Below, in pieces: positions 24,740-30,903 of a stretch of DNA of 64,000 nt. A model generated the notes under the pieces. That model had not been told where the DNA came from. It saw only the letters and a list, made by a program, of their open reading frames with translations, and made no database searches. How positions within the stretch are numbered: the stretch's first letter is position 1; each line of letters begins with the position of its first letter. Made by a program: the position numbers and the translations under genes. Origin of the DNA: Pseudacidovorax sp. RU35E (GTDB lineage: Bacteria; Pseudomonadota; Gammaproteobacteria; Burkholderiales; Burkholderiaceae_C); the NCBI RefSeq assembly GCF_900156165.1, contig NZ_FTMY01000002.1, forward strand, positions 434,001-498,000. The letters are read 5' to 3'.

Positions 24740-25357
24740 ATGACCCTCAGCCTCTACTACCACCCGTACTCGCGGGCCGCAGGCACCCTCTGGGCGCTGG
24801 AGGAAGCCGGCGTCGACTACGACCTGAAGGTCGTCGACATCATGAAGGGCGAGCAGAAGGGCCCCGAGCTGATGGCGAAGAATCCCATGGGCAAGCTGCC
24901 CACGCTGGTGGACGGCGATGTCGTCGTCACCGAAGCGGCCGCGATTGCGCTCTACCTGGCCGACCGACATGCACCACATCTGGCGCCTGCACTGGACGAT
25001 CCGCAGCGCGGCACCTATCTGCGCTGGTCGCTCTTCGCGCCCAGCGTGATCGAGCCCGCCGTGATGGCCAAGCACTCGGGCTGGACCGTCAAGGAGATGT
25101 CGGCCGGCTGGGGCAGCTTCGAGGCCATGCTCAGCGCGGCGGAGGGCGCCATCGCAGGCAAGGACTTCGTGCTGGGCGAGCGCTTTTCCATGGCCGACGT
25201 CGTGTTCGGCGGCACGCTGCGCTTCATGATCGCCTTCAAGCAGATCGAGCCGACGCCCGTGTTCGCCGACTACGTGCGGCGCCTGGACGCCCGGCCCGCC
25301 TTCCAGCGCGCCGAGGCAAAGAACGCGGCCATGCGCCAGTCGCTGGGTCTGCAGTGA
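24740..25357 (+). CDS. Glutathione S-transferase family protein
   Basis: 205 residues. The N-terminal thioredoxin-like domain has LYYHPYSRAAGTLWALEEAG, the cis-proline motif GKLPTLVDGD and the EAAAIALYLAD helix. The C-terminal all-helical domain includes GERFSMADVVFGGTL, the conserved N-capping/Asp motif of GSTs. Substrate is unknown. It sits between pccB and pccA on the same strand, 25 bases after pccB, and its stop overlaps a possible upstream GTG of pccA. It may detoxify a reactive by-product, but this is only suggested by position. Confidence 0.9.
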   Translation: MTLSLYYHPYSRAAGTLWALEEAGVDYDLKVVDIMKGEQKGPELMAKNPMGKLPTLVDGDVVVTEAAAIALYLADRHAPHLAPALDDPQRGTYLRWSLFAPSVIEPAVMAKHSGWTVKEMSAGWGSFEAMLSAAEGAIAGKDFVLGERFSMADVVFGGTLRFMIAFKQIEPTPVFADYVRRLDARPAFQRAEAKNAAMRQSLGLQ

Positions 25358-25395
25358 GCAGTGCCCCATCGCAACGCCAATACAACGGAGCAGCA

Positions 25396-27450
25396 GTGTT
25401 CAAGAAAATCCTGATCGCCAACCGCGGCGAAATCGCGTGCCGCGTCATCAAGACGGCCCGCAAGATGGGCATCAAGACCGTGGCCGTGTACTCGGACGCG
25501 GACCGTGACGCGCGCCATGTGGAACTGGCCGACGAGGCCGTGCACATCGGCGCCGCGCCCTCGCGCGAGTCCTACCTGATGGCCGACCGCATCATCGAGG
25601 CCTGCCAGAAGACCGGTGCCGAGGCCGTGCATCCGGGCTACGGCTTCCTGTCGGAGAACGAGTCCTTCGCCAAGCGCGTGGAAGAAGAGGGCATCGTCTT
25701 CATCGGCCCCAAGCACCATTCCATCGCGGCGATGGGCGACAAGATCGCCTCCAAGAAGCTCGCGAACGAGGCCAAGGTCAACACCATCCCGGGCTACAAC
25801 GACGCCATCGACACGGCCGAGCAGGCGGTGGAAATCGCCAAGGGCATCGGCTATCCGGTGATGATCAAGGCCAGTGCCGGTGGCGGTGGCAAGGGGCTGC
25901 GCGTCGCCTTCAACGACAAGGAGGCGCTGGAGGGCTTCACCTCCTGCCGCAATGAGGCGCGCAATTCCTTCGGCGACGACCGCATCTTCATCGAGAAGTT
26001 CGTGGAGCAGCCGCGGCACATCGAGATCCAGGTGCTGGGCGACAGCCAGGGCCATGTGATCTACCTGAACGAGCGCGAATGCTCCATCCAGCGGCGCCAC
26101 CAGAAGGTGATCGAGGAGGCGCCGTCGCCCTTCATCAGCGATGCGACGCGCAAGGCCATGGGCGAGCAGGCCGTGGCGCTGGCCAAGGCGGTCAACTACC
26201 AGTCGGCCGGCACGGTGGAGTTCGTGGTCGGCAAGGACCAGGACTTCTATTTCCTGGAGATGAACACGCGCCTGCAGGTGGAGCATCCGGTGACGGAGTG
26301 CATCACCGGGCTGGACCTGGTGGAGCTGATGATCCGCGTCGCGGCCGGCGAGCCGCTGCCGCTGACGCAGGCCGACGTGAAGCGCGACGGCTGGGCCATC
26401 GAATGCCGCATCAACGCGGAAGACCCGTTCCGCAACTTCCTGCCGTCCACGGGCCGGCTGGTGAAGTTCCAGCCGCCGGCCGAGTCGCTGTCGGCCTCCG
26501 AGCCGAACGCGCCCGATGCCTATGGCGTGCGCGTGGATACGGGGGTGTACGAGGGCGGCGAGATCCCCATGTACTACGACTCGATGATCGCCAAGCTCAT
26601 CGTGCACGGGCGGGACCGGGCGCATGCCATCGCGCTGATGCGCGAGGCGCTCAACGGCTTCGCGATCCGCGGCATCCACAGCAACATTCCCTTCCAGGCG
26701 GCGCTGCTGGCGCACCCCAAGTTCGTCAGCGGCGACTTCAACACCGGCTTCATCGCCGAGCACTACGGCCATGGCTTCCGAGCCGAGGACGTGCCGCATG
26801 ACGACCCCGACTTCCTGGTCGCGCTGGCGGCCTACGCGCACCGGCGCTACCGTGCACGTGCTTCGGGCATCAGCGGTCAGCTGGCGGGCCATGGCGTGAA
26901 GGTGGGCGAGCAGTTCGTGGTCGTCACGCTCGGGGCGGATGGCGAACATCGCCACACGCCGGTGAGCGTCACCGACTTCCAGGGTGCGACGGGCGCGAGC
27001 GCCGTGCAGGTCGGTAGCCGCAGCTACCAGCTCGAAAGCCGCTCGCCGCTGGGCGGCATCCGTGTCGAGGGGCGCGTCAATGGCCAGCCCTTCACCGCGC
27101 AGGTGGAGCGAGGCGCAGGCAAGAACCCGCTGGCCCTGCGCGTGCAGCACAACGGCACGCAGATCGAGGCCATGGTGCTGTCGCCGCTGGGTGCGCGGCT
27201 GCAGTCGCTGATGCCCTACAAGGCGCCGCCGGACATGAGCAAGTTCCTGCTCTCGCCTATGCCCGGCTTGCTTGTGGACGTCGCCGTCAAGGAAGGCCAG
27301 CAGGTGCAGGCTGGCGAGAAGCTCGCCGTCATCGAAGCCATGAAGATGGAGAACGTGCTCTTCGCGGCCCAGGACGGCGTGGTGGGCAAGATCGCCGCGG
27401 CAAAGGGCGAATCGCTGGCAGTGGACCAGGTGATCCTGGAGTTCAACTGA
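25396..27450 (+). CDS. pccA: Propionyl-CoA carboxylase alpha chain (biotin carboxylase + BCCP)
   Basis: 684 residues from the GTG at 25396. The biotin carboxylase domain (1-450) starts [20 protein letters not shown] and has the ATP-grasp glycine loop [12 protein letters not shown] and [15 protein letters not shown] connecting domain follows, then a C-terminal biotinyl domain with EAMKMEN and the biotin-accepting Lys650. This start is chosen because GGAG lies five bases upstream and the family begins at MFKK. A GTG at 25354 would add 14 poorly conserved residues. With PccB it forms the ATP-dependent propionyl-CoA carboxylase. Confidence 0.95.
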
Positions 27451-27485
27451 GCCGGCGGCGCGTCGGTCCACCAAGGAATATGCCA

Positions 27486-27980
27486 ATGAACAAGGAACGT
27501 CCGTTCAAGGTGCTGGGCGTCCAGCAGATCGCCATCGGCGGTGCCGACAAGCAACGCCTGGCCACCCTGTGGGTCGACATGCTGGGGCTGGAGGTGACTG
27601 GCACCTTCCGCAGCGAGCGCGAGAACGTCGATGAAGACATCTGCGCCATCGGCAGCGGCCCTTTCAAGGTTGAGGTCGACTTGATGCAGCCGCTGGACCC
27701 CGAGAAGAAGCCGGCCGTGCACGCGACGCCGCTCAACCACGTGGGGCTGTGGATCGACGACCTGCCGCGCGCGGTGGAATGGCTGACGGCGCAGGGCGTG
27801 CGCTTCGCGCCCGGCGGGATCCGCCGCGGTGCGGCCGGTTTCGACATCTGCTTCCTGCATCCGAAGGGCAGCGACGAGTTCCCCGTCTCAGGGGAAGGCG
27901 TGCTCATCGAATTGGTGCAGGCGCCGCCCGAGGTGGTCAACGCCTTCGGCGCGATGGCGGCGGCTGCGACGGGCGACTGA
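27486..27980 (+). CDS. VOC-superfamily protein, probable methylmalonyl-CoA epimerase
   Basis: 164 residues, two glyoxalase/VOC half-domains. The start at 27486 is preferred since AAGGA lies eight bases upstream; the ATG at 27480 is too close. Half one is [29 protein letters not shown] and half two [18 protein letters not shown] with GVLIELVQ. In classical epimerases the first metal ligand is His; here Gln14 stands in that position, and the second position may be Asp rather than Gln/Glu. The His in LNHVG and the final Glu remain. The step between carboxylase and mutase is otherwise unassigned in this cluster, which is the main reason for the call; a lactoylglutathione-lyase relative is the alternative. 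Confidence 0.7.
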
Positions 27981-28028: not shown

Positions 28029-28664
28029 TCAGGTGCCCGGGCGACGTCCCAGGGCCAGCACGCCTGCCAGCAGCCACATGCCCCCGCCGCAACCGCGGTT
28101 GAGCCATCGCAGGCTGCGCTGGGACATCCACCGCACCGCCTGCGTACCGGCACCGGCGTAGGCGAGCATCAGCAGCAGGTCGATACCGATGAAGATGCCG
28201 CCCAGGAGGGCGTACTGCGGCACCTGTGATTGGCGCACGTCGACGAACTGGGGGAGGAAGGCGGCAAAAAAGAAGACGGCCTTGGGGTTCGAAAGTGCCA
28301 CGGCCAGGCTTCTCAAAAGGGCGAGGCCGCGCTGCGCATCGTCCTGGGGCGTGCGTGCCAGCGCAGTGCGCAGATCGGGCGTCGGCGCGCGCCACATCCT
28401 CAAGCCCAACCACGCCAGGTAGAGCACGCCGGCCACGCGCAGCCCTTCGAACAGCCAATGGGAGGCCGCCAGCAGGGAACCCAGTCCCAGTGCGACCACG
28501 GCGATGACCGTTGCGCTGCCGAGGCAGGCGCCCGCGATCCCCCAGGCCGCCCGACGCATGCCGCCGAGCATGCCGTTGGACAGGGCCAGCAACATCGTCG
28601 GGCCTGGTGTGGCCGCAATGGCCACGCAGGCCAGGGCGTAGAGGATCAGGGTTTGCGCAGTCAT
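28029..28664 (-). CDS. LysE/RhtB-family amino-acid exporter
   Basis: 211 residues with about six hydrophobic segments. Family hallmarks are ATPGPTMLLALSNGM near the N-terminus, GLRVAGVLYLAWLGLRMWR, and ALSNPKAVFFFAAFLPQFVD in the middle. LysE proteins export amino acids and related compounds across the inner membrane; the substrate is not predictable. Its ATG overlaps the stop of the RnfB-like gene by four bases, so the pair is co-transcribed. It converges on the propionate block. Confidence 0.93.
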   Translation of the reverse strand: MTAQTLILYALACVAIAATPGPTMLLALSNGMLGGMRRAAWGIAGACLGSATVIAVVALGLGSLLAASHWLFEGLRVAGVLYLAWLGLRMWRAPTPDLRTALARTPQDDAQRGLALLRSLAVALSNPKAVFFFAAFLPQFVDVRQSQVPQYALLGGIFIGIDLLLMLAYAGAGTQAVRWMSQRSLRWLNRGCGGGMWLLAGVLALGRRPGT

Positions 28665-29341
28665 GGTTCGTCAGCCGTGGGAGACCTCGGCTGGTCTCGC
28701 GCCGCCCGCGCCCTTGCGAGCGCTGCTTCGACGATCCGGCGCTTTCGCGCGTCGGCGGCTTCGGACATCTGGGCTGCAGCCGGCGATGTGTCGGCGCAGG
28801 TCGCTGCTGCGACCTCCGCGGCCGCCGGCTGGACTTTGGCACGGGCTTCAAGGCGACTCAGTCGTGCGGCGTAGCGTCGCCGGGCATGATCGGCCTGCTC
28901 CTGCGACCACGCAGCCCAGCCGCCAGTGCCGGGCGTGACCACCTCCAGACCGATGCAATCGACAGGGCAGACCGGCACGCACAATTCGCAGCCCGTGCAA
29001 TGGACCTCGATGACGGTGTGCATGCGCTTGTGGAAGCCGAGGATGGCATCCGTAGGGCACACCTCCAGACAACGCGTGCAGCCGATGCACCACGCTTCAT
29101 CGATCACGGCCAGGCTCCGCGGACCTTCCTCGCCGCATGCCGGGTTCAGCGGTCGTTCTTCACGCCCGAGCAGTCCCGCCAGACGCCGCATGCCCTCGAC
29201 GCCCCCTGGCGGGCAGCGGTCTATGTCCGCGCTGCCGTCTGCCAGCGCGGCCGCATAGCCGGCACAGTCCGGATAGCTGCACCGGGTGCACTGCGTCTGG
29301 GGCAGGGCGTCGAGCAGGCGGTCGGCGAGTGAAACGGCCAT
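28661..29341 (-). CDS. RnfB/RsxB-like iron-sulfur electron-transfer protein
   Basis: 226 residues. The N-terminal cluster domain has LPQTQCTRCSYPDCAGYAAA with a later RCPPGG. Two 4Fe-4S ferredoxin motifs follow, CIGCTRCLEVCP and CTGCELCVPVCP, as in RnfB/RsxB. The membrane anchor of classical RnfB is absent, and no rnfA, C, D, G or E is nearby, so this is a stand-alone soluble form, common in Burkholderiales. The C-terminal 90 residues are helical and charged. The ATG at 29341 is chosen over a TTG at 29347. Its electron partner is unknown. Confidence 0.88.
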   Translation of the reverse strand: MAVSLADRLLDALPQTQCTRCSYPDCAGYAAALADGSADIDRCPPGGVEGMRRLAGLLGREERPLNPACGEEGPRSLAVIDEAWCIGCTRCLEVCPTDAILGFHKRMHTVIEVHCTGCELCVPVCPVDCIGLEVVTPGTGGWAAWSQEQADHARRRYAARLSRLEARAKVQPAAAEVAAATCADTSPAAAQMSEAADARKRRIVEAALARARAARDQPRSPTADEP

Positions 29342-29358
29342 CCGCAAAGGAGTCCCGC

Positions 29359-30903
29359 TCAGGCCTTTGTCGCCCGACGCGGCGCGGACTTGCGGGCAGG
29401 CGCGGCCGCCACAGTCTCGGCGGGCGCCGCCTTGGCAGCCTTGCGCGCCGGGGTCGGCGATGTCGCCGCCTTGCGTGCCACGGCCGTTCGCGGCGCAGCG
29501 GGTGCCCGCGTCGGTGCGGACGCCGGTACCGCGACGTGTTTGGCGGACACCGGTGCAACGGGTTCTGCACGCGCTGGCGTCGCAACGGCATTGCTACGGC
29601 GCACGTCTTCGGCCGCCAGCGGCGTGTCGTCGCGCTTCTGCGGCGCATCGTGGGTGGCGATGAAGGCGCGCACCTTCGGATAGACCATGTCGCGCCAGCG
29701 GCGGCCGCTGAAGATGCCGTAGTGGCCGGCACCCTGCACTTCGAAATGCTCGCGGTGCTCGGCGGGGATCTGTGTGCACAGGTCGTGCGCAGCGCGCGTC
29801 TGGCCCGAGCCCGAGATGTCGTCCAGTTCACCCTCGACCGTCAGCAGAGCCGTGGTTCGGATGTCCTGCGGACGCACGCGCTCGATGGCGCCGTCCTCGT
29901 TGCGAACGTCCCAGGTGCCGTCGACCAGCTTGAACTCCTGGAAGACCGTGCGGATGGTTTCAAGGTAGTAGTCCGCATCCATGTCGAGCACCGCGTTGTA
30001 CTCGTCGTAGAACTTGCGGTGGGCCTCGGCGCTGGCGTCGTCGCCCTTCACCAGGTCCTTGAAGTAGTCGTAATGGCTGGTGGCGTGGCGGTCGGGGTTC
30101 ATCGCCACGAAGCCGGTGTGCTGCAGAAAGCCGGGGTACACCCGCCGGCCTTCGCCTGGAAAGCCCTGAGGCACGCGATAGATGACGTTGTTCTCGAACC
30201 ACTCGAAGCTCTTGTTCATCGCCAGGTTGTTCACGGCGGTCGGCGAGCGGCGTGCGTCGATGGGCCCACCCATCATCGTCATCGTGAGCGGCGTGGTTTC
30301 GCCGCGGCTGGCCATCAGAGAGATCGCAGCCAGCACGGGCACGGTGGGCTGGCAGACACTCATGACGTGGCAGTTGCCGTATTCGGCCTGCACGTGGCGG
30401 ATGAATTGCTCCACGTCGTTGATGTAGTCGTCGAGATGGAATTCGCCCTCCGACAGTGGGACCGTGCGCGCGTTCTTCCAGTCGGTGATGTAGACCTTGT
30501 GGCCCTGCAGCATCGTGCGCACCGTGTCGCGCAGCAGCGTCGCGTAATGGCCAGACAGGGGGGCCACGATCAACACGACGGGCTGATTCTTGAGCGTGTT
30601 CAGCACCTCCGGGTCGTCGGTGTAGCGCTTGAAGCGGCGCAACTGGCAGAAGGGCTTGTCGACTTCGACGATTTCGTGGATGACCACCTCGGCGCCGTCC
30701 ACCTGGACGGATTGGATGCCGAACTCCGGCTTCTCGTAATCCTTGCCGAGACGGTAGATGAGGTCGTATCCCGCGGCCACACGCTGGGCCATGGGCAACT
30801 GGCTGAACATGGAGCCGTTGCCGTAGAGTTTGGACACAGCACGCGCGAAGTCCGCGAAGGGCTCCATCAACGAGCGCTGGGCTTCATAGAGGTGATACAG
30901 CAT
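29359..30903 (-). CDS. phaZ: Intracellular polyhydroxyalkanoate depolymerase with a basic C-terminal tail
   Basis: 514 residues. Residues 1-420 match the PhaZ1-type intracellular depolymerases that mobilise PHB granules. The nucleophile is Cys184 (MSVCQPTVPVLAAI), with Asp361 or 362 in GELDDISGSGQT and His394 in GAGHYGIFSG. From about 425 a tail of 90 residues follows, rich in Ala, Pro, Arg and Lys (TPARKAAKAAPAE, APARKSAPRRATKA), like the DNA-binding tails of histone-H1-type or PhaF proteins. The characterised Ralstonia enzyme stops near where this tail begins. The gene pairs functionally with phaB at 11.2 kb. Confidence 0.93.
   Translation of the reverse strand: MLYHLYEAQRSLMEPFADFARAVSKLYGNGSMFSQLPMAQRVAAGYDLIYRLGKDYEKPEFGIQSVQVDGAEVVIHEIVEVDKPFCQLRRFKRYTDDPEVLNTLKNQPVVLIVAPLSGHYATLLRDTVRTMLQGHKVYITDWKNARTVPLSEGEFHLDDYINDVEQFIRHVQAEYGNCHVMSVCQPTVPVLAAISLMASRGETTPLTMTMMGGPIDARRSPTAVNNLAMNKSFEWFENNVIYRVPQGFPGEGRRVYPGFLQHTGFVAMNPDRHATSHYDYFKDLVKGDDASAEAHRKFYDEYNAVLDMDADYYLETIRTVFQEFKLVDGTWDVRNEDGAIERVRPQDIRTTALLTVEGELDDISGSGQTRAAHDLCTQIPAEHREHFEVQGAGHYGIFSGRRWRDMVYPKVRAFIATHDAPQKRDDTPLAAEDVRRSNAVATPARAEPVAPVSAKHVAVPASAPTRAPAAPRTAVARKAATSPTPARKAAKAAPAETVAAAPARKSAPRRATKA

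Follow-up and report, generated by a model that had tools for sequence, protein, structure and literature searches.

A basic-tipped, alanine/proline-rich tail on the intracellular PHB depolymerase of Comamonadaceae and its possible contact with the nucleoid

Several granule-associated proteins carry a basic C-terminal tail, and the following is taken from the accessible parts of the sources cited. According to a 2025 review, polyhydroxybutyrate (PHB) granules are placed on the nucleoid by PhaM, PhaF, and PhaH (PMC13052382), and the lysines of the PAKKA motifs of PhaM are held responsible for this attachment (PMC9049629). The KPAA-type tails of PhaF and AlgP have been associated with DNA binding or granule spacing (PMC9239181, PMC13052382, PMC5658603). 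The charge of the whole protein was given as +35 for PhaF and +55 for AlgP, and an electrostatic contact to polyphosphate was discussed for AlgP (PMC9239181). In Ralstonia eutropha, the depolymerase PhaZ does not degrade PHB devoid of phasins (PMC5658603). Within the searchable text of the 2025 review, the terms "PhaZ" and "depolymerase" occurred once each, in the reference list only (PMC13052382). No basic-tailed depolymerase was found among the literature matches listed, which were mostly the top part of longer lists and covered subscription journals thinly. Here we describe a known enzyme joined to a known type of granule-protein tail, a combination that appears new in that no earlier description was among those matches.

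The window, that is, the whole stretch of 64,000 nucleotides from Pseudacidovorax sp. RU35E analysed here, encodes this enzyme on its reverse strand. The gene and the parts of its catalytic core are located as follows.

29359..30903, (-) strand: phaZ, intracellular PHB depolymerase of 514 aa (open reading frame; TIGR01849), with the stop codon at 29359-29361
29656..30903, (-) strand: PhaZ catalytic core, residues 1-416 (profile matches and alignment)
30352-30354, (-) strand: Cys184, invariant in the alignment
29818-29823, (-) strand: Asp361/Asp362, invariant in the alignment; catalytic candidates, either Asp
29722-29724, (-) strand: His394, invariant in the alignment

The NCBIfam profile TIGR01849 (PHB_depoly_PhaZ) matched residues 2-417 with 560 bits against a cut-off of 300.75 and was covered from position 1 to 405 of 406. 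Pfam PHB_depo_C matched residues 212-418, and the Pfam search of the window PhaZ at E ≤ 1 returned nothing besides this family. No sequence relatives were found in the PDB at E ≤ 0.01. Cys184, Asp361, Asp362, and His394 did not vary among 43 aligned rows; we take Cys184, one of Asp361/Asp362, and His394 to be the active-site candidates, and the fold of the core is presumably of the α/β-hydrolase type. Over the best segments, the identity was 95% with the protein of one Pseudacidovorax metagenome-assembled genome (MAG) and 91% with that of P. intermedius NS331. By its profile matches, the open reading frame is a complete intracellular PHB depolymerase, for which activity on granules is predicted.

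The core is followed by a tail, in which three features were delimited.

29362..29655, (-) strand: Ala/Pro/Arg/Lys-rich tail, residues 417-514 (by composition; net charge +11, no Gly)
29362..29406, (-) strand: basic C-terminal tip, the last 15 residues, net charge +5; the part of the tail with the most regular charge across the family
29437..29451, (-) strand: PARKA, residues 485-489, a variant of the PAKKA motif of PhaM (found by the PA[KR][KR]A scan)

The original prediction was of about 90 residues rich in Ala, Pro, Lys, and Arg behind a complete catalytic domain. This description proved accurate, since TIGR01849 spans residues 2-417 and the tail measures 98 aa; its position had been given correctly to within two residues. 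The 98 residues comprise 32 Ala, 14 Pro, 11 Arg, 9 Thr, 8 Val, 7 Lys, 5 Ser, and 7 Asp and Glu taken together. The charge climbs toward the C-terminus, with consecutive 14-residue blocks carrying -1, 0, +1, +2, +2, +2, and +5, and the tail of +11 sits on a core of -13, which leaves the whole enzyme at -2. When the tail alone was searched against Pfam, no family was matched, and to judge by its composition it is presumably disordered. A match of a valine-tRNA ligase profile to residues 434-512 (E 0.0054) was discarded as a low-complexity match to the tail. Scanning the tail for known motifs gave no KPAA, AKP, SPKK, or PAKKA and the single PARKA listed above. The tripeptide AED occurs at the start of the tail (residues 431-433) and in several rows of Variovorax and Xenophilus, in each case ahead of the basic part.

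We compared the protein with the described systems. It shares the whole catalytic core, including the invariant Cys, Asp, and His, with PhaZ enzymes of the R. eutropha PhaZa1 type (TIGR01849), and it differs from most sampled relatives in other families by the tail, as 20 of the 27 sampled loci there are without a tail of 15 aa. PhaM of R. eutropha (NF043076) is granule-linked and has an Ala/Pro/Lys-rich C-terminal tail like that of PhaZ; it is a phasin-like synthase activator, and no domain in common with the window PhaZ was found. The NF043076 profile did not match the window PhaZ at E ≤ 0.01, a separate phaM gene exists, and the window tail holds one PARKA in place of PAKKA. PhaF and AlgP of Pseudomonas likewise carry a Lys/Ala/Pro tail on a granule protein; they differ from PhaZ in their higher charge, their long regular repeats, and the lack of a depolymerase domain. 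The likeness to PhaF-type tails that had been proposed holds in part: the composition is similar and KPAA is enriched across the PhaZ tails as a group, but the window tail itself has no KPAA, and neither the N-terminal phasin-type domain of PhaF and AlgP nor any other phasin family was matched in the window PhaZ (Pfam, E ≤ 1). The proposed likeness to histone H1 was not borne out, as Pfam found no linker-histone globular domain in the tail alone or in the whole protein and the window tail contains no SPKK. Homology to histone H1 or to phasins was rejected on the absence of profile matches in protein and tail. An HU protein with a Lys/Ala/Pro tail resembles the PhaZ tail in composition; HU has its own DNA-binding fold, whereas none was recognised in PhaZ. 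Among the tailed proteins compared within the same genome, the nearest counterpart of the PhaZ tail is PhaM.

The occurrence of the tail was investigated in two samples. In the first, the best 80 of at least 574 confirmed relatives were fetched from genome contigs, so that this sample leans to close kin; the paralogue from the same genome (L002), a gene that looks frameshifted (L021), and one open at a contig end (L041) were dropped, giving 79 rows including the window. Tails of 30 aa or longer were present in 75 of the 79 rows; the net charge was positive in 75 and at least +5 in 64. The second sample comprised genomes of the same GTDB family (f1), which we judged by the named loci among the best 80 of at least 574 to be Comamonadaceae and their nearest relatives, and genomes of other families of the order. 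A PhaZ match at E ≤ 0.001 was obtained in 59 of 60 family genomes and 36 of 100 order genomes, some of these being a second paralogue or fragments only. The 58 family loci came from 56 of the 59 other family genomes plus two from the order sample; G107 was left out for want of a match, and G139 and G145 because no locus of the main orthologue was fetched. The 27 loci of other families are those with a locus in the order sample; seven further loci were read as paralogues, and weaker matches were left out.

The survey of Comamonadaceae-type PhaZ that the original prediction had called for supported a widespread tail: the main orthologue carried at least 15 aa in 56 of the 58 family loci, with a net charge of at least +2 in 51 of the 58. 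Tail length in the family ranged from 16 to 248 aa, besides two rows with 4 aa, and in 5 of the 58 orthologues the tail as a whole was neutral or acidic with a tip that was still basic. Among the 27 loci from the order's other families, 7 had at least 15 aa, and a single one combined at least 25 aa with a net charge of at least +5. For instance, the homologue of Cupriavidus oxalaticus (L295) is 413 aa long and tail-less, and that of Paraburkholderia sp. PGU19 (L296; 445 aa) is extended by a stretch of other composition. A second PhaZ paralogue, 42-47% identical, had a tail of at least 15 aa in none of 22 loci (15 from f1 and seven from other families). In strain RU35E this paralogue (L002, G000:C4:32457-33926) is 408 aa long, has no such tail, and lies about 18 kb from L264 (G000:C4:51870-52367), the sole match to PhaC_N in the genome search; the tailed PhaZ is encoded on a different contig.

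A quick FastTree tree was built from the core only (108 rows; 41 of 105 inner branches with support below 80). All f1 orthologues formed one clade (support 96), and the lineage of the window was joined with L096 at a support of 84 and with L086/L087 at 98. On this tree, presence of the tail required five changes in all. We interpret them as a single gain basal to f1 and its nearest outgroups, two losses (L147 and L149), and two gains of short tails elsewhere, a history which the core tree would fit.

Tail statistics were calculated for those 114 of 137 genes whose tails reach 30 aa (75 from the best-80 set including the window and 39 from the family set; 23 shorter ones were omitted), and a species may be represented in both sets. 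Lys accounted for 11.7% of the residues versus 2.8% ± 0.2 after shuffling of the tail nucleotides, and Gly for 2.6% versus 9.1% ± 0.3. With rising GC3, the fraction K/(K+R) dropped (Spearman -0.56) and the net charge per residue hardly changed (Spearman -0.17, p 0.06), both over the 114 tails and with no kinship correction. Thus, tail Lys is replaced by Arg at higher GC, and the charge density is nearly independent of GC3. The last 15 residues carried +0.29 per residue versus +0.09 in the remainder of the tail and 0.149 ± 0.010 in shuffles. The net charge of this tip was at least +2 in 109 of the 114 tails, the neutral and acidic ones included (within the family set, 53 of 56), leaving five tails without a basic tip; it was at least +3 in 106 of the 114, versus 94 of 647 background genes of the same genome. 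In 34 of 35 close pairs, which share lineages, the pN/pS of the tail was below 1, with a median of 0.40 as compared with 0.076 for the core; the window and L003 were 55% identical in the tail and 95% in the core. KPAA occurred 36 times, in 31 of the 114 tails, versus 10.2 ± 3.6 in within-tail shuffles (3.5-fold), and PA[KR][KR]A 10 times versus 2.7 ± 1.8; SPKK was not enriched (5 in 114 tails versus 4.5 ± 2.0). These results revealed that the PhaZ tail is real, bears signs of selection on charge and composition, and is neither a product of chance nor of GC drift.

Three short motifs recurred among the 114 tails: AED in 19, KTxW in 13 (L027-L029, L033, L037, L040, L044, L049, L052, L053, L057, L062, and L079), and TRW in 4 (L031, L043, L068, and L075). 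Many of the KTxW and TRW rows were Limnohabitans- or Acidovorax-like. The Trp motif could be a docking peptide.

Similar tails were then sought in an own-genome background of 864 kb, made up of 400 kb each of contigs C13 and C16 and the window (about 15% of the genome). A simple GC-frame caller gave 708 genes, 647 of them with at least 130 aa; as it missed PhaM, the set is no census. PhaZ was the only one of the 647 whose last 80 residues reached both 55% A+P+K+R and a net charge of +8. A looser scan of 4231 stop-to-stop open reading frames in the same 864 kb, again no census because PhaM was lost, apparently to the Gly limit, yielded 18 candidates, and at least 70% A+P+K+R in the tested stretch was found solely in HU and PhaZ. 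The HU protein (L244:7182-7550) matched PF00216 over residues 1-89 and continued in a Lys/Ala/Pro tail of about 33 residues with a net charge of +10. The PhaM of the same genome matched NF043076 (PHA_gran_PhaM), and its tail, AKPAGRKAPAKKASARKTAARKKP..., was plain on direct reading. From these results, the proteins found to bear a long tail of this kind are a DNA-binding protein, a member of the granule/nucleoid tether family, and PhaZ. This company is not exclusive, as shorter basic C-termini are found on some further genes. Six of the 647 called genes, not including PhaZ, had a net charge of at least +6 and at least 60% A+P+K+R in the last 25 residues; about 27 basic, A/P/R/K-rich residues close a TfoX_N protein (L224:18373-18921, (-) strand; PF04993, 102.1 bits), and a methyltransferase likewise has a short basic C-terminus. 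No tail of the PhaZ kind is present in PhaC, whose last residues are ...GRYVKAKA, and the two phasins end in ...AAKTATKTATAKR and ...AQGMDAHKKR.

PhaM was present in 60 of 60 family genomes, and its last 40 residues had a net charge of at least +5 in 55 of 59 closed copies. The PhaZ tail as a stand-in for an absent PhaM was therefore rejected. The tail charges of the two proteins were weakly correlated (rho 0.26, p 0.05; no kinship correction). In G128 the PhaZ tail is lost (L147) and the shortest closed PhaM is found (L265). Strict co-loss of the two tails, which this genome fits, was rejected, since it is contradicted by G132, with the PhaZ tail lost (L149) and the basic end of PhaM kept (L194), and by G114, with a PhaM devoid of a basic end (L281) and a PhaZ tail of +13 (L129).

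Considering the signs of selection on the tail, its charged tip, and the long tails on HU and PhaM, the best-supported reading, drawn by analogy, is nucleoid tethering; we propose tentatively that the tip makes a weak, sequence-independent electrostatic contact with the nucleoid. PhaZ would act on granules as a depolymerase whose disordered, Ala/Pro-rich tether ends in a basic tip. By touching DNA, the tip may act as a fuzzy electrostatic tether between the granule-acting enzyme and the nucleoid. This would be the physical principle of the C-terminal tails of PhaM, PhaF, and AlgP, here placed on the degrading enzyme. Such a contact might keep the depolymerase on the granule faces beside the DNA, or PhaZ might share the granule-nucleoid interface with PhaM. 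Several observations speak against this reading or against a strong tether. The tail contributes +11 next to a core of -13, far short of the values for whole PhaF and AlgP, PhaM is already present with a nucleoid role by analogy, and, within f1, two of 58 tails are lost and five are neutral or acidic, in addition to the five of 114 that have no basic tip. The wider statement that in Comamonadaceae and their nearest relatives the main depolymerase, besides PhaM, is attached to the nucleoid by its own tail is somewhat doubtful and follows from the same analogy. If it is true, both synthesis and breakdown of PHB would take place at the granule-DNA interface, and the state of the nucleoid or competing polyanions could set the speed at which the PHB store is used. 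A basic tail on the main depolymerase in nearly all family loci offers a testable handle of about 15 residues. Because the tail sits outside the catalytic core, it may also matter for the engineering of PHB production.

The main rival explanation is that the basic tip binds another polyanion or an acidic partner, such as the phasin-coated granule surface, RNA, polyphosphate, or PhaM/PhaC, and thereby docks the enzyme on granules. Depolymerases must find a protein-coated granule, which accords with the undegraded state of phasin-free PHB in the presence of R. eutropha PhaZ, as far as the accessible text of PMC5658603 goes, and the contact of AlgP with polyphosphate discussed in the accessible part of PMC9239181 provides a parallel. 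Docking would also suit a charge that is low for a DNA tether and located at the extreme tip, as well as the recurring AED, KTxW, and TRW motifs, which are docking-peptide-like. On the other hand, the second paralogue, which has no such tail, and the main orthologue in other families, which mostly has none, presumably act on granules too. We regard docking on such a partner as possible, though on the doubtful side.

It is unlikely that the tail lacks a specific target and serves general solubility or as an entropic bristle, or that it is a disordered extension left to drift with a loose preference for Ala/Pro and positive charge. The strong drift in sequence and length, with 16 to 248 aa in f1 besides the two 4-aa rows, agrees with this explanation, as do a tail pN/pS about five times that of the core, the two losses, and the short basic ends on unrelated genes. 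It is opposed by the rarity of long tails of such composition in the 864 kb sampled, by a charge that is maintained through Lys/Arg exchange across GC and concentrated at the tip, and by the apparent single origin, long retention, and absence from the second paralogue. Least probable by far is an artefact, that is, a frameshift or GC-rich out-of-frame reading mimicking a basic tail: both alternative frames of this DNA (+1 and +2) are Arg-rich too and the MAG locus L021 looks frameshifted in its tail, but the tail of at least 30 aa is open in the frame of the core in 75 of the 79 rows of the best-80 set including the window, and the explanation was rejected on frame composition (out-of-frame Arg 22.3 and 15.6% and Lys 5.6 and 2.2%, versus Arg 6.5% and Lys 11.7% in the real tails) and on the synonymous excess in 34 of 35 pairs.

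The gene neighbourhood of phaZ was also conserved, with the following gene directly downstream.

28661..29347, (-) strand: rnfB/rsxB-like ferredoxin gene (TIGR01944, 175.5 bits, cut-off 68.7)

Among the best 80 of at least 574 loci, 78 had an rnfB gene downstream of phaZ on the same strand; the two exceptions were L025, in which a basic tail is also lacking, and L041, which lies at the end of a contig. The distance from the phaZ stop to the start of the rnfB match was -9 to 135 bases, L021 apart; in this Variovorax MAG, the phaZ frame apparently shifts within the tail and continues over rnfB. An rnfB match lay within the phaZ locus of about 4 kb in 30 of 31 loci from f1 and in 8 of 27 from other families. 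Since rnfB is near phaZ in other families too, the phaZ-rnfB pair seems to be older than the tail. Further along the window, at 25354-27980 on the (+) strand, an open reading frame of 698 aa resembles a biotin-dependent carboxylase by eye, with AMKMEN near its end, and one of 166 aa in the same region resembles methylmalonyl-CoA epimerase, likewise by eye.
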